A stretch of 49,213 nt of DNA from assembly GCA_012729725.1 (NCBI GenBank), contig JAAYCO010000048.1, forward strand, positions 1-49,213. The letters are read 5' to 3'. Each line of letters starts with the position of its first letter. Positions within the stretch are counted from its first letter, which is position 1. A program made the position numbers and the translations under genes. This document shows, in pieces, positions 6,297-25,773 of this stretch. The notes below the pieces were generated by a model. That model worked only from the letters and a program-made list of their open reading frames with translations. It ran no database searches and was not told where the DNA came from. Origin of the DNA: Planctomycetota bacterium. GTDB lineage: Bacteria > Planctomycetota > Phycisphaerae > SM23-33.

Positions 6297-6724
6297 AGTT
6301 AGCGCCTCCCATTGAAGAAATGTCCCGCACCATCGACGTTTTGGTTAGTGCACAAGCCCAGACAGAGCCTGTATGCCGCATTTGCCCGCCCTATGTGCTC
6401 GCTAAACATCAGCTTTTGCTCACCGTTTCTGCCGTAGTTCCGGTTAGCAGCATGTACACCAGAGGCCACTTGTGGAGGCCGTTTTCGTGAGTGCCTCCAG
6501 ATATGATCTACTACTATGCTACCACAATCTGCGAATTACGCCAGTGTCAAACGCCAAATGTCAGACGCCGCAGGCCAAGTCTCTCTCGCCGAGTAATGCC
6601 AGAATGCCCTAACCAACCCGCCACGCATCTGTCCAATATCCACACCTGCCAACGTGTAGACTGCCGGGCGGGAAGGTCTTACAATCCGCTCATCAGTTCC
6701 GTGGCGGCAAAGGAGTTTGGATAC

Positions 6725-9700
6725 ATGGGCGAAAAGGTTGATATTCGTGTGGATGGTTACCATCTGACCGATGCCATCGGCACGGGCGGCATGGGCAGCG
6801 TGTTCCGGGCCACGGTCGAGGCTGACGACAAGCCGGTGGCCAGGGGCACAACCGTCGCCGTCAAATTGCTTCATCCGCATCTGCGGACGATAGAGGAATT
6901 CGTCAAGCGGTTCCATCGCGAGGCCCGTCTGGCTGCGTCCATCGATCACCCCAACGTCGTGCGCGTGCTCGACGAAGGCTGCGAAGACCGCAAGCACTAT
7001 ATCGTTATGGAGATGGCTGAGGGCCTCAAGCTCAACGACCTCATCGGCGACAACCAGCCGCTAAGCCCCCAGCAGACCATCGAGGTGATGAACCAGGTGT
7101 GCGACGCCCTCGGGGCCGCTGCCGCCGTGGCAGACCCCGACCAACCCGGCCGCGTGCGGAATCTCGTCCATCGCGACATCAAGCCCGACAACATCATGAT
7201 CCAGCCGCTGGATCGCAAACAGTACGACACAATGACCCGCACGGGCGACAAGACCGCCCTGGCCAACATCCGCGTCAAGCTGCTGGACTTCGGCCTGGCC
7301 AAAGACGTCAAGGCCCTCTCGACCATCCTCTCACAGACCGGCCAGTCGCTGGGCACGCCCGCTTACATGTCACCCGAGCAGTGTCGCGGCGACGACGTTG
7401 ACGGCAGAAGCGACATCTACTCACTGGGCGTGGTTGCGTATCACATGATCACCGGCACCCAGCCGTTCGCCGGGCCAACAACGGTTGCATACGCCACGCA
7501 GCACGCCGAAGAGATTCCGCCTGACATCCTTGGCCGCAATCCGCTGTGCCCCAAAAACCTTGCCGATTGCATCTATCGCTGCCTGGCGAAAGACCCCAAG
7601 GATCGCTACGCCGAGGCGGCTGAGCTTCAAGCCGATCTGGTGCGGGTGTCGAAGGGCCAAACCGTCGCCAAGGTGTACAAGTTCAAGAAGAAAGGCAGCT
7701 TCAGCCATCGAAAGGTGGCGGCGATTATGGCGGCAACCGCCGTTATCCTGCTGCTTGCCGTGGCGGGCGGCTGGTTTTTCCTTACCGATCGCGCCAAGGC
7801 GGACTTTGCCGAGGCGGTGCGTCAGGCTGATGTGCTGATAGCAGCCCAGGACTACGCCGGGGCCAGCTCGAAGCTTCAGCAGGCGATAGCGGATTTTCCA
7901 AACCGTGCCAACAAGGCCCAACTGACAGCACCCGCCCACGATCGGCTGAGGGATATCGCTGCTAAGGCAGCCGAGCAGGAATCCGCCCGGATGGTCTCAC
8001 AGGAGCAGCAGCGCCGTCGCGAACACGAAGCCGCCGCCGTTGCAGCCGTCGCGGCCATCAAGGCAAAAACCGCGGCCGCGGATTATCAAGGCGCCATAGA
8101 CGCCGCCAACGCAGCACTCACCACCTTTGCCGACACGCCCGCGGGGGCCCAACTGCCCGATCTTCTGGCGGGGGCCACGGAAAAACTTCGGGGCCGGCAG
8201 GAGGCGGACAAGGCACTCGCTGAAGCCCAGCGTAAGCAGCAGGAAGAGCAGGCCCGCATCGAGCGAGATCGACAGACAGCCGAGGCCGCCGCCCGCCGCG
8301 AGCGATTTGTTCGCTACCGTGATGAGGGGCAGGTCGCCTATAACCGTGCCGTTGCTTCCGGCAGCCGATCTGATTATCTCACCGCGCGAGCATCGTTTGA
8401 GGCCGCCATCGCTGAGCAGCAAGACGCCGAGGTTCAGCGTTTATTGCAGCAGTGCATCGACCGCACAACGCGGCATCGCATCGCGGTGGCGGACTTTTCC
8501 GTCACCGGGGATGTGGGCATTGCCGATGCTGGCAAGGCGGTTGGCGAGTTGCTGCTGAGTCGCTTCGGGGCCGACCGTTACCAGCTTGTGGAGCGTTCGC
8601 ACCTGGCTGCCATCTTGGCTGAGCACGATCTGACGATGGCGGAGATTGTCTCCAATCCCGCCCGCCTTCGCGGCAAGAACCTCGCCGGCGTGCGGTATAT
8701 CGCGCTTGGTAGCGTGGTTCGCCTGGGCAACATCGCCATCTCTGCTCGGGTGGTTGACGTGACTTCGGGCGACATTATCCAGACGGCTGAGGTATCTGCC
8801 GAAGATGCTCGGGGCCTTCAGAATGCACTGGCCGAACTCGCCCGCATCCTCCAGATGACGCCGGAGGAGAAGAAGGCGTATCTGGACTCGGCGCTGTATC
8901 CCCAGCTTCTGGCAGAGGCTCGTTCCAAGCGTCAGGCCCGCCAATATGACGATGCCATATCCATTTATCAGCGGGTGCTGGCCATTCGTTCAACGGTGGA
9001 CATTCAGGATGAGCTTTCAGCCTGCCGCCGCGACAAGGATGCATGGGAGCGGCTGCAGGCAGATGAGCGTGAGCGCCAGCGGCAGGAGGCCCAGCGTGCG
9101 AAGGAACGCCAGGAAGCCGATCGCGAGCGTGATCAACAATTCGCATCGCTGGTTCAACAGGCCCGCGCCATTGCCGATACGCTGCCTGCTGACCGCAGCC
9201 GCCTGACGGAATCGCAGAAGTCGCAGGCTCAGCGCGGGGTTTCATTGACGGATCAGGCCTTGGCTATCAAGCCCGGCGACGCCACCGCTACGGCCCTGAA
9301 GTCCCGCCTGGCGGGATATCTTGGGCCGGAGAAGGAACTCACACTCGATCTCGGCGGCGGTGTTAGCATGAAGCTGGTGCTCATCCCCGCCGGTCGCTTC
9401 ATGATGGGCAGCCCCTCCAACGAGAAGGATCGTGACGGCGATGAAGGCCCCCAACGCCAGGTGACGATCTCCAAGCCGTTCTACATGGGCGTGTACGAGG
9501 TGACACAGGCTCAGTATGAGGCAGTAATGGGCAATAATCCCAGTCATTTCAAAGGGGCGAACAATCCGGTGGAGCAGGTTTCGTGGAACGACGCCACAGA
9601 ATTCTGCCGTCGTTTGAGTCAGCGAACGGGCAAGACTGTCCGTCTTCCTACCGAGGCCGAGTGGGAATACGCCTGCCGTGCTGGCACGACTACCCGTTTC

Positions 9701-10051
9701 TATTATGGTGACGATCCCGACTATCGCCAGCTTGGCGAATATGCGTGGTATAACACAAACAGCAATAGTCGGACTCAGCCTGTCGGCCAGAAGCGGCCCA
9801 ACGCCTTTGGCCTGTACGATATGCACGGCAATGTCTACGAGTGGTGCAGCGATTGGTTTGCGGATTCATACGCGAATGCGAATAATACTAACCCCACAGG
9901 ACCGGCTTCGGGCAGCCGCCGCGTGCTGCGCGGCGGTTCGTGGATCTGCTATCCGCGCCTCTGCCGCTCGGCGCTCCGCTACTGGTTCTCCCCGGTCCAC
10001 CGGGGCAGCTACTACGGGTTTCGGGTCGTGGTGGTTTCCGGCGTGGACTGA
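6725..10051 (+). CDS. Hanks-type Ser/Thr protein kinase - TM - coiled coil - CsgG-like - FGE-sulfatase/C-type lectin fold protein; DGR target
   Basis: GTGGMGSVFRA, VAVKLL, HRDIKPDN, DFGLAK, GTPAYMSPEQ kinase motifs; TM AAIMAATAVILLLAVAGGWFFL; RHRIAVADFSV...VGELLLSRF...VERSHLAAIL CsgG-like; GGGVSMKLVLIPAGRFMMGSPSNEKDRDGDEGPQRQVTISKPFYMGVYEVTQAQYEAVMG...RLPTEAEWEYACRAG...GLYDMHGNVYEWCSDWF FGE domain. Start chosen at ATG 6725 (MGEKVDIRVDGY). Confidence 0.93.
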   Translation: MGEKVDIRVDGYHLTDAIGTGGMGSVFRATVEADDKPVARGTTVAVKLLHPHLRTIEEFVKRFHREARLAASIDHPNVVRVLDEGCEDRKHYIVMEMAEGLKLNDLIGDNQPLSPQQTIEVMNQVCDALGAAAAVADPDQPGRVRNLVHRDIKPDNIMIQPLDRKQYDTMTRTGDKTALANIRVKLLDFGLAKDVKALSTILSQTGQSLGTPAYMSPEQCRGDDVDGRSDIYSLGVVAYHMITGTQPFAGPTTVAYATQHAEEIPPDILGRNPLCPKNLADCIYRCLAKDPKDRYAEAAELQADLVRVSKGQTVAKVYKFKKKGSFSHRKVAAIMAATAVILLLAVAGGWFFLTDRAKADFAEAVRQADVLIAAQDYAGASSKLQQAIADFPNRANKAQLTAPAHDRLRDIAAKAAEQESARMVSQEQQRRREHEAAAVAAVAAIKAKTAAADYQGAIDAANAALTTFADTPAGAQLPDLLAGATEKLRGRQEADKALAEAQRKQQEEQARIERDRQTAEAAARRERFVRYRDEGQVAYNRAVASGSRSDYLTARASFEAAIAEQQDAEVQRLLQQCIDRTTRHRIAVADFSVTGDVGIADAGKAVGELLLSRFGADRYQLVERSHLAAILAEHDLTMAEIVSNPARLRGKNLAGVRYIALGSVVRLGNIAISARVVDVTSGDIIQTAEVSAEDARGLQNALAELARILQMTPEEKKAYLDSALYPQLLAEARSKRQARQYDDAISIYQRVLAIRSTVDIQDELSACRRDKDAWERLQADERERQRQEAQRAKERQEADRERDQQFASLVQQARAIADTLPADRSRLTESQKSQAQRGVSLTDQALAIKPGDATATALKSRLAGYLGPEKELTLDLGGGVSMKLVLIPAGRFMMGSPSNEKDRDGDEGPQRQVTISKPFYMGVYEVTQAQYEAVMGNNPSHFKGANNPVEQVSWNDATEFCRRLSQRTGKTVRLPTEAEWEYACRAGTTTRFYYGDDPDYRQLGEYAWYNTNSNSRTQPVGQKRPNAFGLYDMHGNVYEWCSDWFADSYANANNTNPTGPASGSRRVLRGGSWICYPRLCRSALRYWFSPVHRGSYYGFRVVVVSGVD
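9914..10046 (+). repeat. DGR variable repeat (VR) at the 3' end of the kinase/FGE gene
   Basis: RVLRGGSW-ICYPRLCRSALRYWFSPVHRGSYY-GFRV: FGE consensus with substitutions concentrated in NNC/NNT codons (ATC TGC TAT CTC CTC TAC TTC GTC CAC AGC TAC TAC), as expected from AAC codons in a template; A-free 3' stretch 10016-10046 as candidate IMH. Confidence 0.85.
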
Positions 10052-10103: not shown

Positions 10104-10140
10104 CCAAGGGGCGAAGCCCCTTGGCCGCCCGACGGGCGGC
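10104..10140 (+). promoter_or_regulatory. Tandem hairpins just downstream of VR (DGR hairpin/cruciform candidate)
   Basis: CCAAGGGGC-GAA-GCCCCTTGG (9-bp stem) followed by GCCGCCC-GAC-GGGCGGC (7-bp stem). Confidence 0.65.
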
Positions 10141-10163: not shown

Positions 10164-10508
10164 ATGGCGCAGGAACTGAAGGTTATTCAGGATTTCTACG
10201 ACTTCATGCTGTGGATAATTCACCACACTGAGAAGTTCCCGCGCCATCACCGCTACAGCCTTGGGTTGGCAATTGAAAACCGCCTCCAGAAAATCCTTGA
10301 TCTGTTGCTTCGGGCGAAGTTCTCGCCGAACAAGGCCGGATTCCTCAACGACGCCAACATGGAGCTTGAGGTGCTGCGATTTCAGGTCCGCCTGGCGAAG
10401 GATCTCAAGGCTATGCCGATCAAAAGCCACGGCCATGCAGCCACGGTAATGCATGGCATCGGCGCTCAGATCGGCGGATGGCTATCAAGCAAGGTTGTTA
10501 AATCATGA
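10164..10508 (+). CDS. avd: DGR accessory variability determinant (Avd-like four-helix bundle)
   Basis: 114 aa helical protein (MAQELKVIQDFYDFMLWIIHHTEKFPRHHRYSLGLAIENRLQKILDLLLRAKF) overlapping the RT start. Confidence 0.88.
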   Translation: MAQELKVIQDFYDFMLWIIHHTEKFPRHHRYSLGLAIENRLQKILDLLLRAKFSPNKAGFLNDANMELEVLRFQVRLAKDLKAMPIKSHGHAATVMHGIGAQIGGWLSSKVVKS

Positions 10509-11695
10509 AAAGATACGGCAATCTATGGGATGCTCTTGTGTCGTGGGAGAACCTGCTGCTGGCCGCTCGCAAGGCCCGCCGCGGCAAGCGCGACCGCTCG
10601 GCCGTGCAAAGGTTCGAATTCGATCTTGAGGCCAATCTTCTCGCCCTTCAGAAAGAAATGATGAACGGGTTCTACAGCCCAGGCGACTTCCGGACCCATT
10701 GGATCAGCCGTCCCAAACCACGGTTGATTTCTGCGGCCCCTTATCGAGACCGTGTAGTGCATCACGCTCTGATGAACGTGCTGGAGCCGATCCTGGAGCG
10801 GCACTTCCACCCGCACAGCTATGCCTGCAGGAGTGGCAAGGGTACTCATTCCGCCGCGGACAGATTGCAGAGACTTCTTAAACACAACCGGTATTTCTTG
10901 CAGTGCGACATTCAGAAATACTTCCCCAGCATCGATCACGAAATACTTAAAGGGATGATCCGGCGGCTGATTAAAGACAACCGCATATTGTGGCTGGCGG
11001 ATCTTGTCGTAGACCACTCGAATGAGCAGGAATCGAGATGCGAATACTTTTCTGGTGATGATCTCTTTGCCCCTTACCGGCGTCGGCGCGGGCTTCCGAT
11101 CGGCAACCTTACCAGTCAGTGGCTGGCGAACTGGTACCTGACGCCACTGGACCATTTCGTGACAAGCAAACTTGGGCTGGGCGCATACGTCCGCTACTGC
11201 GACGACTTTATCTTGTGCCACAACAGGCGCTCGGCGTTAATGGAGGCAGCCGGAGCCATTCGTCAGTTCCTGTCGGGCCTTCGCTTGCGGCTGCACGAAC
11301 GCAAGCTTCAGATACAGCCCTCCGGCCTGGGCGCAACGTTTGTGGGCTTCCGCCTGTGGTCCTCGCACCGGCTCGTCCGCAAGGCAAATGTTCGCCAGTT
11401 CCGTAGGCGGGTGCGGTGGATGCGACGAGCATACGCCAATGGGATAATCCAGTGGACTGACATCAAGCCGCGTCTTGCCAGTTGGATTGGACACGCGCGG
11501 CAAGCTGATAGTGAGAGGCTGATCCGCCGCATCGCGAGCGAATGGGTCTTCACGAGGGACAGCGCCGAAGAGCAACCGCGTGCTGCGAGGGGGAAAAAGG
11601 GGTCAGGAACCTTTTTCGATTGGCCATTCTGGCTATATCGTCATGCCAAGAAGTTGCCGAGTAACCACTGGTGGCGTGGAGCATCATGTGCCTAA
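10505..11695 (+). CDS. DGR-type reverse transcriptase
   Basis: KPRLISAAPYRDRVVHHALMNVLEPI...FLQCDIQKYFPSIDHEIL...RGLPIGNLTSQWLANWYLTPLDHFV...YVRYCDDF; IGNLTSQ motif typical of DGR RTs. Confidence 0.93.
   Translation: MKRYGNLWDALVSWENLLLAARKARRGKRDRSAVQRFEFDLEANLLALQKEMMNGFYSPGDFRTHWISRPKPRLISAAPYRDRVVHHALMNVLEPILERHFHPHSYACRSGKGTHSAADRLQRLLKHNRYFLQCDIQKYFPSIDHEILKGMIRRLIKDNRILWLADLVVDHSNEQESRCEYFSGDDLFAPYRRRRGLPIGNLTSQWLANWYLTPLDHFVTSKLGLGAYVRYCDDFILCHNRRSALMEAAGAIRQFLSGLRLRLHERKLQIQPSGLGATFVGFRLWSSHRLVRKANVRQFRRRVRWMRRAYANGIIQWTDIKPRLASWIGHARQADSERLIRRIASEWVFTRDSAEEQPRAARGKKGSGTFFDWPFWLYRHAKKLPSNHWWRGASCA
11571..11593 (+). repeat. Probable remnant of DGR template repeat (TR)
   Basis: AGCAACCGCGTGCTGCGAGGGGG vs VR 9914-9936 AGCCGCCGCGTGCTGCGCGGCGG: 19/23 identical, 3 of 4 mismatches at TR adenines, same orientation, immediately 3' of the RT core. 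Confidence 0.6.
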
Positions 11696-11887
11696 CCGGT
11701 CACATGCACGTCTAAGACTGGTTGAATAGCAGGCGGATTATCGTGCTTTCTTCAGTCCGTGGCGGGAGAGGCCCACGAGCGGGTTGCAATGCGGCCCTGC
11801 TCCCTTTAACCCCCTGACGCCAAACAGCCCAAAGACCAAACCTCCTGCCGCCGATCGCGGAATCCGGCGTGTTTCGGTGTGGGGGGG
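11594..11887 (+). repeat. Repeat unit A of ~294-bp tandem repeat with GAAAAAGG..CCTTTTTC palindrome
   Basis: Near-identical to 11888-12180; starts AAAAAGGGGTCAGGAACCTTTTTCGA. Confidence 0.9.
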
Positions 11888-12180
11888 AAAAAGGGGTCAG
11901 GAACCTTTTTCGAGTGGACATTCTGGCTATATCGTCATGCCAAGAAGTTGCCGAGTAACCACTGGTGGCGTGGAGCATCATGTGCCTAACCGGTCACATG
12001 CACGTCTGGCAGTGGTGGAATAGCAGGCGGATTATCGTGCTTTCTTCAGTCCGTGGCGGCAGAGGCCCACGAGCGGGTTGCAATGCGGCCCTGCTCCCTT
12101 TAACCCCCTGACACCAAACAGCACAAAGTCCCAACTTCCTGCCGCCGATCGCGGAATCGGCGCGTTTCGGGATGTGCGGG
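11888..12180 (+). repeat. Repeat unit B of ~294-bp tandem repeat
   Basis: Starts AAAAAGGGGTCAGGAACCTTTTTCGA; same order and text as unit A with scattered differences. Confidence 0.9.
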
Positions 12181-16230: not shown

Positions 16231-17934
16231 ATGAATGAACTGAAAAAACATCTCGCCGCCCTCCGCGCGTGGGCGCTGGGGCTTGGCATTGGCGGGCGCG
16301 CGGCCCTTGCAGTGTCGGCGCTTTTGCTTCTTGCCGGATGCCTATGGTTGGCGCTGTCGGGCGACAAGACGCAGAAGGTCGTCCTGCCCGTGGACGTTGC
16401 CGCCGCCGATGTCGCCGAGGCGCTGAAGGCCATTCAAGCCCAGGGCATAGACGCTTCCGTCGACGGGGGCAGGATTCACGTTCCTCCCGGCGCTCAGGAA
16501 TCCGCGAAGATGGCGCTTGTCTCGGCGGGCATTGGCTCGCCTTCGTCGTTTGAACAGGCGCTGGCGCATGAGGGCCTGTGGTCTTCCGCATCTCAGAATC
16601 ACAAGCGATGGCTGGCCGCCAAGATGACGGCGCTGTCTCGCGGCATTGGCAAGTTCCCCGGCGTCAAGCGCGCGGTGGTTCTGCTGGAAGAACCCGCGCA
16701 GCGTTCGCTGGGTTCCGTTGGCGCCTCGGCGAGCGTGCAGGTGGAGCTATCAACGCCGCTGGCGATGACTCGCGATGTTCAGCACGCCATTGCCGATCTT
16801 GTCGCCGGAAGCGTCTCGGGCCTCAAGCCCCAGGATGTTCGGATCGTCGATACCGCCGGCAGAAGCTACCGGCTTGACGAGGAAGACCGTCCCGTTGGTC
16901 CCGAGCAGCGGCTGGTCGCCGCCAGACTGGAGATGCTCGAGCAGGCGCGATCGGTGCTATCGCAAATTCCCGACGTCCTGCTGCACGTGCAGATGCGGAT
17001 GCGGGACGACAAGTGCGAGTGCGAGTCGCTGTGGGCATCGATACCCTTGAGCTACATCCAGGCGGTGGCTGCACAGAGAAAGAGCGACGTTCAGTCGTCG
17101 GCGGAGGTTTGCCTGAACAAGACGCGGGCGGCCCTGGCTGGCGCGCTGGGCGCCGACCCGCGGATCATCAGGGTTGATTGGCATTACGACGTCGGGTCTT
17201 CGTCCCCGGCTGAGGCGCAATGGAAGGCCCATCTGTCGTGGGCGCTGCCGCCTGTCGGCGGCGTGATCGTCGTGGCATGCATCGCCGTTTTTCTCTTCAA
17301 ACGCCGCCGAGCCCATTCGAGGCATCCCCTCGACGTGCTGGAACTGGCCAGCCCCAACGACCTGTGCGAAATTCTGTCTCTTGAGCACCCGCAGACAATC
17401 GCGGCAGTGCTTGGCCGGCTTTCCCCGGCGCGGCGCGAAGCGGTTCTCGAATCGATGGACGAGGCCGCGCGTATGGAAGTGGAGCGTCGGCTGGACTCGA
17501 ACGTGGCCCCTGATCGGCGCGTTCTGGACGAGGTTCACACCGCCATCGCGGCCCGCCTTGCGCAGTTTGTCTCTCGCCGGCAGGATGTGCAGGCCCGAGA
17601 GGCGCCTTTCGCCGCCGGTGCGGGCGGCGAGGTTGCCGACAACGCCCTTGATTTTGACGATCTGCTGGCGATGGACGATTCGACTCTGGGCGAGGCGCTG
17701 GCTGATCTTGACACTCACTGCCTTGCAATCGCCCTTCGCACCGCCGACGCCAGGCTTGCGCAGAAGATAGTCGCCTGCATGCCGTTGGATCAGGCCCAGG
17801 AATTGCGCGAGCGGATGGACAGCATCGGCCCGGTGCGTCTGAGCGACGTCGAAGCCGCACAGAGACAGGTAGTTCGTGCAATCCGCACACCCGCCGGCAG
17901 GTACGTTTCGCATGCCGGAGAGAGGATAGCGTGA
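16231..17934 (+). CDS. fliF: Flagellar FliF (MS ring) - FliG (middle and C-terminal domains) fusion protein
   Basis: FliF-like N-terminal part with two TMs, then FliG-M (LSLEHPQTIAAVLGRLSPARREAVLESM) and FliG-C (FDDLLAMDDSTLGEALADLDTHCLAIALRTADARLAQKIVACM...SIGPVRLSDVEAAQRQVV) in one ORF. Confidence 0.88.
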   Translation: MNELKKHLAALRAWALGLGIGGRAALAVSALLLLAGCLWLALSGDKTQKVVLPVDVAAADVAEALKAIQAQGIDASVDGGRIHVPPGAQESAKMALVSAGIGSPSSFEQALAHEGLWSSASQNHKRWLAAKMTALSRGIGKFPGVKRAVVLLEEPAQRSLGSVGASASVQVELSTPLAMTRDVQHAIADLVAGSVSGLKPQDVRIVDTAGRSYRLDEEDRPVGPEQRLVAARLEMLEQARSVLSQIPDVLLHVQMRMRDDKCECESLWASIPLSYIQAVAAQRKSDVQSSAEVCLNKTRAALAGALGADPRIIRVDWHYDVGSSSPAEAQWKAHLSWALPPVGGVIVVACIAVFLFKRRRAHSRHPLDVLELASPNDLCEILSLEHPQTIAAVLGRLSPARREAVLESMDEAARMEVERRLDSNVAPDRRVLDEVHTAIAARLAQFVSRRQDVQAREAPFAAGAGGEVADNALDFDDLLAMDDSTLGEALADLDTHCLAIALRTADARLAQKIVACMPLDQAQELRERMDSIGPVRLSDVEAAQRQVVRAIRTPAGRYVSHAGERIA

Positions 17935-17941
17935 GGTGAGC

Positions 17942-18673
17942 ATGAAACGCGTAATCAAAATGCAGGACGCCGGCGAAATGTTGGGCGACGCGGCAGTCCC
18001 GCTTGAGCTTGCCGACGTCGCGGCGGAGGCAAGGGACATTATCTCTCGCGCGCGTTCGGCCGCCCAGAAGATCGTCAACGACGCGCAGGAGCAGGCCAGG
18101 CAGATCCAACAACTTGCCGCCGACGACGCCAGGTCTGCCGGTTTTGCAAAGGGACGAGAAGAAGGCTTTGCTCAGGGCCTCGCCGCGGGGCGGAAGGAAA
18201 TCGAGGCGGAGCTTAAGACCCAGTCGGTGGAACTGACACAGCTTGCCGGCAGGATTCTGGGCGAACTGGCGGGCGCCAGAGAAGAACTGCTGCGAGAGGC
18301 GTCCGGCGAGCTTCTGAACCTTGCCATAGACATCGCCCGCAAGGTTGTAGGCACAGTTGCGATACGCGACATATCGGCGGCCCGCGCGAATCTGGCCAAG
18401 GCTCTTGAGCTTGCAGACCCCGCCGGCCAAGTGGTTGTGCGAGTGAACCCACGGCAACTGGAACAATTAAGTCTGCGGCTTGACGGCCTGACGGAAAGCC
18501 TGTGCGTTCGCGGCACGGTAAAGCTTGTCGCCGACGAGCGCATCGCCCCAGGCGGCGTGAAGCTGGGCACGCGCCAGGGCGAAATAGACGCCACGATTGA
18601 CACGCAGATCAGGAATGTGGTTGAGGCGCTCGTCGGTCCGGGCTTCGGCCCGCTGCCACAGGAGGCGTCTTGA
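17942..18673 (+). CDS. fliH: FliH-like flagellar assembly protein
   Basis: Coiled-coil N-terminus; AIDIARKVVG...VVVRVNPRQLEQL...VKLVADERIAPGGVKLGTRQGEIDATIDTQI; between fliF and fliI. Confidence 0.85.
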   Translation: MKRVIKMQDAGEMLGDAAVPLELADVAAEARDIISRARSAAQKIVNDAQEQARQIQQLAADDARSAGFAKGREEGFAQGLAAGRKEIEAELKTQSVELTQLAGRILGELAGAREELLREASGELLNLAIDIARKVVGTVAIRDISAARANLAKALELADPAGQVVVRVNPRQLEQLSLRLDGLTESLCVRGTVKLVADERIAPGGVKLGTRQGEIDATIDTQIRNVVEALVGPGFGPLPQEAS

Positions 18674-20016
18674 ATTCGCTTGAATCATACAGGCGGATCG
18701 TTCGCAACGTCGTGCCCGTCGGGCTGACGGGTCGCGTTCACGGCGTTCGCGGCCTGACGGTTACGGTGGGCGATTTTCCCGCGCCAGTCGGCGCCTCGTG
18801 CCGCATTGTCCGCACGGGCAGGGGAGTAGACGCCCGCGTCGTTGGCTTCACCGGAAGGCACACGCTGGTCATGCCGATCGGGCAGTGCGCAGGCATATGC
18901 AAGGGCGACAGGGTGATATTCACATCCGGCGAGCAATCGCTTGGAGTTGGCAAGTCGATGCTGGGGCGGATTATCGACGGCGTGGGCAGGCCCATAGACG
19001 GCAAGGGCGAGATCGTCTGCGATGCCAGAGCGGCGATATGGCCCGCGCCGCTGGGTCCGATGCAGCGCCGCAGGATAGACCAGCCGCTGGCGACCGGCAT
19101 TCGCGCGATCGACGGCCTGTTGACCGTTGGCAAGGGCCAGCGAATGGGAATATTCAGCGGCTCGGGCGTTGGAAAAAGCGTCATGCTTGGCATGATCGGC
19201 AGGTACACGGCCGCCGATGTTACGGTTATTGCGCTTGTGGGCGAACGAGGCAGGGAAGTTCGTGATTTTGTTGAACGCGATCTTGGCGAAGAAGGGCTTG
19301 CTCGAAGCGTTATCGTTGTTTCAACAAGCGAAGATCCGCCGCTGCTTCGAGTTCAGGCGGCTGCGGTGGCGGCAGCGGTGGCGGAATTCTTCCGAGATCG
19401 CGGCCTTGACGTGCTTCTGCTGATGGACAGTCTAAGCAGGCTTGCCTCCGCGCAGCGCACCGTCGCGCTGGCTGCCGGCGAACCCCCGGCCACGCGCGGA
19501 TACCCGCCAAGCGTATTCAACCTGCTGCCCGAGCTGCTTGAACGCAGCGGAAGGACCGAGCGGGGATCCATAACCGCCTTCTACACCGTGCTGGTTGAGG
19601 GTGACGATTTCTCCGAGCCCGTCGCCGACGCCGTGCGCAGCGTAACGGATGGACACATCTGCCTTAACAGGCAGTTGGCCAACCAGGGCCACTACCCGGC
19701 TGTGGACGTGCTGGCCAGCATCAGCAGGGTGATGATAGATGTTGCAAGCCAGCCGCAGCTCGCCGCCGCCAGGGAGATTCAGGGCCTGATGGCGGCTCAT
19801 GCAGAGATACAGGATCTCATCAGCGTTGGGGCATACAAGACCGGCGCAAACCCGCGAGCCGATCTGGCGATTGCGGCAATGCCGCTGGTGCGCGATTTTC
19901 TGGTGCAATCAATCAGCGAGAGCTCGCCCCTCGATCAGACGATGAGCAGGCTTGCCGAATTACGTGGAACCATCGAACGAATCAGCAAGGATCTGCAACG
20001 CGGATCGCAAGGATGA
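18670..20016 (+). CDS. fliI: Flagellar export ATPase FliI
   Basis: GKGQRMGIFSGSGVGKSVMLGMI, ALVGERGREVRDF, LLLMDSLSRLASAQR. Confidence 0.96.
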   Translation: MNSLESYRRIVRNVVPVGLTGRVHGVRGLTVTVGDFPAPVGASCRIVRTGRGVDARVVGFTGRHTLVMPIGQCAGICKGDRVIFTSGEQSLGVGKSMLGRIIDGVGRPIDGKGEIVCDARAAIWPAPLGPMQRRRIDQPLATGIRAIDGLLTVGKGQRMGIFSGSGVGKSVMLGMIGRYTAADVTVIALVGERGREVRDFVERDLGEEGLARSVIVVSTSEDPPLLRVQAAAVAAAVAEFFRDRGLDVLLLMDSLSRLASAQRTVALAAGEPPATRGYPPSVFNLLPELLERSGRTERGSITAFYTVLVEGDDFSEPVADAVRSVTDGHICLNRQLANQGHYPAVDVLASISRVMIDVASQPQLAAAREIQGLMAAHAEIQDLISVGAYKTGANPRADLAIAAMPLVRDFLVQSISESSPLDQTMSRLAELRGTIERISKDLQRGSQG

Positions 20017-20510: not shown

Positions 20511-20755
20511 TGATAAGGCCACGCAACACCGATCGTATGCGGATCAACCTTGGCAGGCGGTGCATCAGCGTCTGCCAGATGGCCTCGCTGAAACCAGGCG
20601 CCATCATCGAACTGGACAAGCCTGCCGGCGACCACGTGGAGGTGTTTCTCGGATCGCGCCTGCATGCCAAAGGCAATCTGGTGTGCATCGACGGCAAGCT
20701 GTGCGTGCGGGTCTGTCAGGCGGTGGACGCCTCAGCAGCGACGGTGCAGACATGA
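20510..20755 (+). CDS. Minimal SpoA-domain (FliN/FliM C-terminal-like) protein
   Basis: 81 aa: RMRINLGRRCISVCQMASLKPGAIIELDKPAGDHVEVFLGSRLHAKGNLVCIDGKLCVRV; TAATG overlap with upstream gene. Confidence 0.85.
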   Translation: MIRPRNTDRMRINLGRRCISVCQMASLKPGAIIELDKPAGDHVEVFLGSRLHAKGNLVCIDGKLCVRVCQAVDASAATVQT

Positions 20756-21267
20756 TCAGGAGCATGCGACTATTCGCCATGCTCGCATGCATCGGCCTGA
20801 CGGTCGCCGCCGCATCTGCTCAATCGACGCAGCCGGGCGGCCCTTCGACCGGCGAGTCTTTGGAGCAGAAACCTGTTGGCGGCATCGAACAGAACAAGGT
20901 GGGCGAATCCTCGCAATCCGGGCAGTTGATGCAGTGGCTTCAAAGCATTGCCGCACTGGGCGTGGTTGTGGGCGTGATATTCCTGCTGCGGTTCGTGCTT
21001 CGCAGGATGGTTCGCACCGGCGGCGTTGGGTTCGCTCGCCGCCAAGGCCCGCTCGATGTGCTTCACCAGGTTTCCGCCGGGGCAGGGCGGCAGTTGCTGC
21101 TGGTGCGCCTCGGTCGGCGACTGCTGCTGATAGGAAGCACAAGCGGCGGCCTGCGAACGCTGGCCGAGGTGGACGATGAGATGCAGGCGGCGGAAATGAT
21201 GCGTCAACTCGGTCTTGACGCGCAAGCCAAACCCGGCCGAGACGCAGAAAAATCGGAGGAAGCATGA
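20752..21267 (+). CDS. fliO: FliO-like protein
   Basis: Signal/TM, then ...QGPLDVLHQVSAGAGRQLLLVRLGRRLLLIGSTSGGLRTLAEV; directly upstream of fliP. Confidence 0.85.
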   Translation: MIRSMRLFAMLACIGLTVAAASAQSTQPGGPSTGESLEQKPVGGIEQNKVGESSQSGQLMQWLQSIAALGVVVGVIFLLRFVLRRMVRTGGVGFARRQGPLDVLHQVSAGAGRQLLLVRLGRRLLLIGSTSGGLRTLAEVDDEMQAAEMMRQLGLDAQAKPGRDAEKSEEA

Positions 21268-23660: not shown

Positions 23661-23682
23661 CGAGCCGAAGGACGAGAAGTTG

Positions 23683-25773
23683 ATGGCAAGGATGCCGGAC
23701 ATTCTCAGCAGGGCCAGCGGCGCGGTGGCGGCGCACAGGGGGCTGTTTCTGCCGCTTGCGGCGATCGGCCTGATACTCGTGATCATCATTCCGCTGCCGG
23801 CGATGGTCATGGACATTCTTCTGTGCGCCAACCTCGCCATCTCGGCAGTGATTCTGCTGACCGCGCTTCAGGTTTCGACGCCGCTGGAGTTCAGCGCCTT
23901 CCCAACTTTGCTTCTGCTGGCCACGCTGTGGCGGCTCGTGTTGAACGTCGCAAGCACGCGACTCATTCTTACAGCCGGCAGAAACGGCCTGCAGGATGCG
24001 CAGTTGGGAGCGGGACATGTTATCAACGCCTTCGGCGGGTTCGTGCCCTCAGGTTCGCTGGCCGTCGGGTTGATACTCTTCGGGATTATCGTTCTCGTGC
24101 AGTTCATGGTGATTACCAAGGGCGCATCACGCATCAGCGAAGTGGCTGCGAGATTCACCCTTGACGCCATGCCCGGCAGACAGATGGCGATAGACGCCGA
24201 ACTGGCGTCGGGGCGAATAGAGGCTGCCCAGGCGTCGCGGCAGCGGGCGGAAATCGCGCGCAGTGCCGATTTCTACGGCGCGATGGACGGCGCATCGAAG
24301 TTCCTTCGCGGGGATGCGCTTGCGGGGCTTGTCATCACCGTGGTGAACCTGCTTGGCGGCATGTACGTGGGCATGGTCGAATACGGATGGTCGTGGAGCG
24401 ATACTTCGGCCGTCTTCTCCAGGCTGACCGTGGGCGATGGGCTTGTAACGCAGATACCCGCGTTTCTTCTGTCGATCTCGGCAGCGCTTCTGGTAAGCAG
24501 GAGCGGCCGGAGCGAGGACCTTGGCAGGCAGGTGATATCACAGCTTGCGGCGCGGCCGGTTGTGCTGGCAATTGCGGCGGGATTCCTTGGCATGCTGCTG
24601 TTCACGCAATTGCCCAAGCTGCCGCTGCTGATGCTTGGTGGCGGCCTGGCCGGACTGGCGTACACCGTTCGAGGCAGGGCGCGGAACCGAGCAGCCTCGA
24701 AGCCCGCGTCCTGCGCCGCCATAGAACGACATGAATCCCAGGATGCGGTCAAGATGCCCGCGGTGGATCCTGTGCGGCTTGATCTTGGGTTCGCACTCGT
24801 CCGACTTGCCGACAAGGCACGCGGCGGCGACTTGACCGACAGGATCGCGCAGATGCGAATGACGATTGCCGAGGAGCTGGGCCTGATGCTCGGCCCGATT
24901 CGCATCAGGGACGACATGCGGCTGGAATCGCACGAATACGCCATATTCATTCGGGGTGCGAAAATCGCCTCCGGCAGGCTGTATCCAAACCAGCGGCTGG
25001 CGGTGGGTGGCGATTTGAAGGAAGGCGATCTTCACGGCAGAGCAACCACCGAGCCGGTGTTCGGCACGCCGGCGGTGTGGATCAGCCCGTCGCAAAGCGA
25101 AAAGGCCATCGCCTTGAAGTGTATGCTTGTCGAGCCCGCTGCCGTGCTGATAGCCCATCTTGGAGACATCCTGCGAAGTCACGCGCCCCAGTTGCTTGCG
25201 CGCAAGCAGGTGGCAGACATGCTGGAGACGCTGAAAGTCTCGGCGCCGGGTCTTGTGCAGGAGATAACGCAGCGGCTTTCTGTCGGCGACGTGCAGAAGG
25301 TGCTTGGGAACCTGCTGTCCGAGCGGGTGAGCATCCGCGACCTCGAGATGATACTCGAAGCGGCAGGCGACGCCGTAGCAGACGGCGTCCAGGGCCACGA
25401 GGCGATCACAGAGCGGGTTCGCTCGTCGCTTGGTCGCGCGCTATGCCAGCAGTACGCCTCCGCCGACGGCAGGCTGTGGTGCGTGAGCCTCGATGCTTCG
25501 CTTGAGGATTCGCTGTGCCGCTACGTGGGACACGGCAAGAGCGGGGCGATACCGCCCGAAGTGAACAGGAAGGTCGCTCGCACTGTCGCGTCGAGGCTGG
25601 AGGATTTGCGCCGCTCGGGCCGGCAGGCGGTTGTGCTTTGCTCGCCGCCGCTTAGACCCGCCATCAGGCGCATGCTTGCCGACATATCGCCGAAATCGAC
25701 GGTGCTTGCTTATAACGAAGTCAATTCAGTGGAAGTTAATTCCGTCGCGACCGTGGGAGCCGATGAATCATGA
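23683..25773 (+). CDS. flhA: Flagellar export protein FlhA
   Basis: PLEFSAFPTLLLLATLWRLVLNVASTRLIL...FVVITKGA-like FMVITKGASRISEVAARFTLDAMPGRQMAIDAEL. Confidence 0.97.
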   Translation: MARMPDILSRASGAVAAHRGLFLPLAAIGLILVIIIPLPAMVMDILLCANLAISAVILLTALQVSTPLEFSAFPTLLLLATLWRLVLNVASTRLILTAGRNGLQDAQLGAGHVINAFGGFVPSGSLAVGLILFGIIVLVQFMVITKGASRISEVAARFTLDAMPGRQMAIDAELASGRIEAAQASRQRAEIARSADFYGAMDGASKFLRGDALAGLVITVVNLLGGMYVGMVEYGWSWSDTSAVFSRLTVGDGLVTQIPAFLLSISAALLVSRSGRSEDLGRQVISQLAARPVVLAIAAGFLGMLLFTQLPKLPLLMLGGGLAGLAYTVRGRARNRAASKPASCAAIERHESQDAVKMPAVDPVRLDLGFALVRLADKARGGDLTDRIAQMRMTIAEELGLMLGPIRIRDDMRLESHEYAIFIRGAKIASGRLYPNQRLAVGGDLKEGDLHGRATTEPVFGTPAVWISPSQSEKAIALKCMLVEPAAVLIAHLGDILRSHAPQLLARKQVADMLETLKVSAPGLVQEITQRLSVGDVQKVLGNLLSERVSIRDLEMILEAAGDAVADGVQGHEAITERVRSSLGRALCQQYASADGRLWCVSLDASLEDSLCRYVGHGKSGAIPPEVNRKVARTVASRLEDLRRSGRQAVVLCSPPLRPAIRRMLADISPKSTVLAYNEVNSVEVNSVATVGADES

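Follow-up and report, generated by a model that had tools for sequence, protein, structure and literature searches.

The window analysed here is an entire contig (C225, 49,213 nt) of a Phycisphaerae-type MAG, and the locus is known from this one consensus contig. The host genome amounts to 3.22 Mb in 250 contigs, with a completeness of 96.6% and a contamination of 2.3%, so that a few percent of it is unseen. Domains were called with Pfam and NCBIfam, structural neighbors were taken from the PDB, and the host's own genome was searched with masked patterns, at the DNA level (blastn) and with a covariance model. The locus harbors the following features of a DGR, together with the remains of a mobile element.

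6491 to 10051, + strand: DGR target gene, encoding the variable protein (1186 aa, assuming that the GTG start is correct)
Residues 90 to 374 of its product: Ser/Thr protein kinase
Residues 663 to 745: CsgG-like segment, a weak match
Residues 961 to 1180 of 1186: C-terminal FGE/CLec-fold domain (FGE-sulfatase)
9914 to 10033, + strand: variable repeat (VR)
10015 to 10033, + strand: IMH-like 3' end of VR, core GGGTTTCGGGTCGTGGTG
10104 to 10139, + strand: pair of neighboring stem-loops downstream of VR, with stems of 9 and 6 bp and loops of 3 nt; candidate homing hairpins
10164 to 10508, + strand: Avd accessory protein, 114 aa
10505 to 11695, + strand: DGR reverse transcriptase (RT)
11571 to 11590, + strand: stump of the template repeat (TR), AGCAACCGCGTGCTGCGAGG, 20 nt (to 11593 if GGG is counted)
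11591 to 11884, + strand: decayed RAYT/IS200-like remnant, copy 1 (repeat family D1)
11885 to 12158, + strand: decayed RAYT/IS200-like remnant, copy 2, in tandem

The VR sits at the 3' end of the gene for the CLec-fold target, the best PDB match of which is the Treponema denticola variable protein 1 (TvpA; 2y3c, E 3e-40). A frame-broken FGE paralogue of the target domain is found elsewhere in the host genome (L002, G000:C128, approximately 20749-20831). Further downstream in the window, a single ORF (16231-17934) with YscJ_FliF and FliG domains appears to encode a FliF-FliG fusion, in the vicinity of genes for a FliI-like ATPase (18670-20016) and for FHIPEP/FlhA (23680-25773).

The product of the second gene is recognized as Avd by two models, both above their cut-offs (PF22296 bAvd, 2.5e-20; NF033474 DivGenRetAVD, 2.7e-26). 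The RT (PF00078, 3.6e-20; PDB 8ub7, 7.8e-55) carries the motifs GLPIGNLTSQ and YCDD, the IGNLTSQ-type and YxDD signatures of the DGR clade, and many loci with related RTs (up to 71% identity) hold TR/VR pairs. It is 69-71% identical to the RTs of the genomes G056, G072 and G010 and about 42-55% identical to most cyanobacterial and other RTs gathered from genome contigs. It is also the sole DGR RT of its own genome, the one further match being that of its read-through tail to the second repeat copy. Both the RT and the Avd ORFs are open. The native, homologous part of the RT stops at about position 11569, and its final ~40 codons cover the TR stump and extend into the RAYT remnant.

The coordinates and translation of VR (ending in SRRVLRGGSWICYPRLCRSALRYWFSPVHRGSYYGFRVVVVSGVD and the stop codon) agree with the original prediction, and the GGSW, CRSA and GFRV scaffold is conserved. 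Where most of the TRs of 14 relatives have AAC or AAT, the VR codons are ATC, TGC, TAT, CTC, CTC, TAC, TTC, CAC, GGC, AGC and TAC; in addition, GTC in VR pairs with GAC in the relatives' TRs, and TGG at 9983 pairs with AGG in 9 of the 14. Adenines apart, the VR codons correspond to the TR codons of these relatives. The codon signature of an adenine template that had been proposed is thus real, but the list of codons given for it was loose, since TGG and GGC were left out and TAT is not an NNC codon. The enrichment in NNC codons itself constitutes moderate evidence only, because such codons make up 39% of the entire target CDS.

Two other indicators carry less weight than they might seem to. 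The A-free tract proposed as a site for the initiation of mutagenic homing does exist (10015-10046, 32 nt) but is ordinary: the + strand of the window holds 21 tracts without A that are 31 nt or longer, and such a tract, uninformative by itself, was rejected as evidence for an IMH. What is informative about the 3' end of VR is that positions 10015-10033 are identical over 19 nt to the TR 3' end in L109, a locus of G072 with an intact TR (blastn, 19/19). Likewise, a Fisher test contrasting mismatches at A with those at other bases was rejected as sole evidence, as a significant result was also obtained when a non-DGR FGE paralogue stood in for the template; this simple contrast is confounded because VR is A-poor. 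A comparison by class of site is more telling. At the sites where the TRs of the 14 relatives have bases other than A, VR differs from them by 23%, close to the 25.5% found among the TRs themselves, whereas the non-DGR FGE paralogue of the same genome differs by 34%. At TR-adenine sites, VR differs by 78%, against 10.7% for the TRs among themselves.

These points bear on the idea that the target never belonged to a DGR and is simply an ordinary protein of the FGE fold, whose codon pattern arose by chance in a G+C-rich gene. The abundance of NNC codons and of A-free tracts and the success of the paralogue in the Fisher test would be in line with such an origin. Nevertheless, the presence of bAvd and DGR RT genes directly downstream and a TR stump mismatched at adenines only already contradict it, and the 19-nt identity to an intact TR end and the smaller non-A difference to TRs compared with the paralogue make it extremely improbable. 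In keeping with the claim first made for this locus, the adjacent genes, the TR/VR pairs of relatives and the stump together indicate that VR has genuinely been shaped by adenine mutagenesis in the past. As for the stem-loops at 10104-10139, they have a fold z of -4.2, and a similar pair is found at the same place in G072 (L109; z = -5.2); they may function as homing hairpins.

The search for repeats yielded one VR-related repeat in the area, which matches VR 9914-9936 with 11571-11593. Over the 20 nt of the stump, the three mismatches to VR 9914-9933 all fall on an A of TR (3/3); a fourth mismatch, at 11591 (G for C), lies in a G-run that can equally well be assigned to the adjacent repeat unit. 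By direct count, no other site of the window comes within three mismatches of any kind to the first 20 bases of VR. The position of the stump, directly behind the RT, is homologous to that of the intact TR of G072. The original prediction had proposed to align VR with a TR and held that a template differing from it throughout at non-adenine positions would speak against it. The stump is not such a template, and its mismatches occur at adenines only, but the alignment ends after ~20 nt, the remaining ~100 nt of TR being absent from the assembled genome.

After position 11590, the sequence switches to GGGAAAAAGGGGTCAGGAACCTTTTT and continues as a 294-nt tandem repeat, the two copies of which are 95% identical. 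The first one starts with a REP-like palindrome, AAAAAGGGGTCAGGAACCTTTTT, followed by the beginning of a Y1 transposase gene whose frame is broken. Over ~210 nt, each unit aligns with the 5' portion of a RAYT-like gene on contig C117 of the same genome, the product of which has a Y1_Tnp domain (PF01797). This relative is intact, and the copies in the window, in which the left palindrome and a stop-interrupted 5' region of the gene survive, do not represent a working RAYT/IS200-like element. Insertion plus deletion is a reconstruction, because the right end of the remnant is not recognizable.

No complete TR with an IMH* was found by pattern scans and blastn in the assembly, which is 96.6% complete. 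An ungapped, adenine-tolerant scan showed that a full TR is absent from the window. Any adenine template of the present VR must match adenine-masked patterns of it, and such 60-mers, taken from each half of VR and allowed up to three mismatches, matched only VR itself in the host genome. Similarly, blastn of the G072 TR with its spacer against the host genome retrieved only the 3' end of VR (10015-10033). Matches to VR on contigs C128 and C241 were rejected as TRs, the former being the broken FGE paralogue and the latter a chance match. The working TR-to-VR system implied by the original prediction is therefore not borne out, as TR is truncated after ~20 nt and the assembled genome holds no other.

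What is absent from the assembly can be gauged from relatives. The adenine-tolerant scan detected TR/VR pairs at about three dozen of the RT-related loci, typically with no non-A mismatch in 60-nt windows. In G072, the TR lies directly behind the RT and, over 60 nt, departs from its VR at 11 adenines and at no other base. The TR is directly followed by a conserved structured RNA of ~180 nt in FGE-type DGRs of cyanobacteria, Thiotrichaceae/Beggiatoa-like and Phycisphaerae-type genomes. It was aligned from 18 loci (alignment A2), and examples include L109:1747-1940, L108:4184-4406 and L067:7180-7361, among others. In this alignment, a two-sided change that preserves the pairing occurs in one sequence or more for 28 of the 38 predicted pairs, a count not set against shuffles. 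The covariance model built for it (R1) recovers 10 loci outside its alignment, with E values of 2e-18 to 4e-50, and Rfam has no family for this spacer RNA or for the locus in the window. In BPP-1, the spacer recruits RT-Avd and primes cDNA synthesis (PMC12875486); the RNA described here has the same placement relative to TR and may, by analogy, play an equal role.

Model R1 recovers G072 and G056, which both belonged to its training set, but has no match in the window or in the host genome. Its scores are lowest for these G+C-rich Phycisphaerae-type members (57-61 bits), and it misses L111, a locus that has a TR. Because of these low scores and of this miss, a divergent spacer could escape the model, but the pattern scans for TR are unaffected. 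Two relatives depart from the usual arrangement. In G056 (L108:4064-4190, contig C126), the TR lies upstream of avd and is preceded by sequence resembling an RT C-terminus, which suggests that it may have moved from an RT-TR arrangement. In G010, of the same family (L110:5668-7250, contig C126), VR and an intact RT are present, avd is shortened, and neither TR nor spacer RNA was detected at this locus, which is possibly a second template-less DGR.

Two ways in which a functional DGR might persist have to be weighed. The first is that all or some cells of the organism retain an intact system, the contig being either a minority variant or a chimera joined at a dispersed REP-like repeat. The window is, after all, a MAG contig, the REP-like 23-mer recurs on contigs C117, C25 and C101 of the same genome, and in Thiohalocapsa PB-PSB1, variants that possess a complete TR occur alongside others that lack it (PMC10907252). 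Yet the junction shares only ~23-31 nt, which is probably below the usual final assembly k-mers, the two tandem copies differ by 5% and were resolved, and no fragment of TR or spacer occurs on other contigs of the bin, which makes this scenario rather unlikely. The second is that the DGR still works with a TR provided in trans by an unassembled part of the genome, of which 3-4% may be missing; remote VRs are known, hence action at a distance (PMC7517822). As there is only one DGR RT, with no TR or spacer element in the assembled 3.22 Mb, and as the stump in cis marks the former site of TR, this is very unlikely.

The interpretation favored here, with a probability of about 0.82, is that of a once active, chromosomal DGR of the kinase-FGE type that has lost its template, so that retrohoming is impossible from the assembled genome and VR is frozen. 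In its active past, the RT-Avd complex would have copied the TR RNA, erring at adenines, and the mutated cDNA would have replaced VR at the 3' end of the target gene, giving rise to variable, NNC-rich codons for the ligand-binding surface of the FGE/CLec domain. Later, a RAYT-like (REP-associated Y1 transposase) element would have entered TR after its 20th base, or recombined there, and then decayed and duplicated in tandem; a deletion would have removed the structured spacer RNA and the 3' part of TR, including its IMH*. With neither template nor spacer RNA, no mutagenic retrohoming should take place from this genome and VR should no longer change. In the reconstituted BPP-1 system, inactivation of TR, Avd or RT reduces retrohoming to background (PMC12875486). 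That the RT and Avd genes stay open suggests that the loss is recent, or that both are still under selection.

The closest known counterpart is the DGR of G072, a genome of the same class (contig C95, loci L020/L109), which shares the VR-avd-RT order, an RT of 69% identity, the same IMH, similar hairpins after VR and the place of TR directly behind the RT. Its TR and spacer RNA are intact, in contrast with the template cut after 20 nt here. Cyanobacterial variable proteins similarly fuse a Ser/Thr kinase to a C-terminal, VR-bearing CLec domain of the FGE type (PMC7517822); their RTs are about 44-54% identical to the one described here, and most carry the TR downstream of the RT, with a matching spacer RNA. 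They belong to another phylum, and it is in the present locus that TR is lost. In degenerate DGR loci of Thiohalocapsa PB-PSB1 (DGR 7), MITE-like repeats matching the ends of insertion sequences replace a TR and, as in the present locus, other DGR parts remain (PMC10907252). There, the arrays derive from insertion sequences, and intact strain variants were found by long reads (PMC10907252), whereas RAYT-like remnants on a single contig are seen here. BPP-1 and Treponema TvpA have in common with this locus an RT, Avd, a CLec-fold target, adenine mutagenesis, an IMH, a hairpin and the presumed spacer RNA role; here, in contrast, there is no phage, the FGE-type target is fused to a kinase and the template is lost. 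Since both the replacement of TR, in PB-PSB1, and kinase-CLec targets, in cyanobacteria, are known, the locus is a degraded DGR of a known sort, and otherwise an ordinary one.

The locus warns that a clean VR signature next to intact RT and Avd genes does not amount to an active DGR. A single chromosome bears the outcome of adenine mutagenesis and, alongside it, the loss of the template, which makes it a place to ask how quickly a DGR target settles once retrohoming has ended. It is a tentative idea, and on balance an improbable one, that Phycisphaerae-type lineages might recurrently lose their DGR templates to REP/RAYT elements and in this way freeze a selected variant of a signaling kinase. 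If so, it would amount to the domestication of a hypermutated sensor, of which G010 would provide a second case in the same family.
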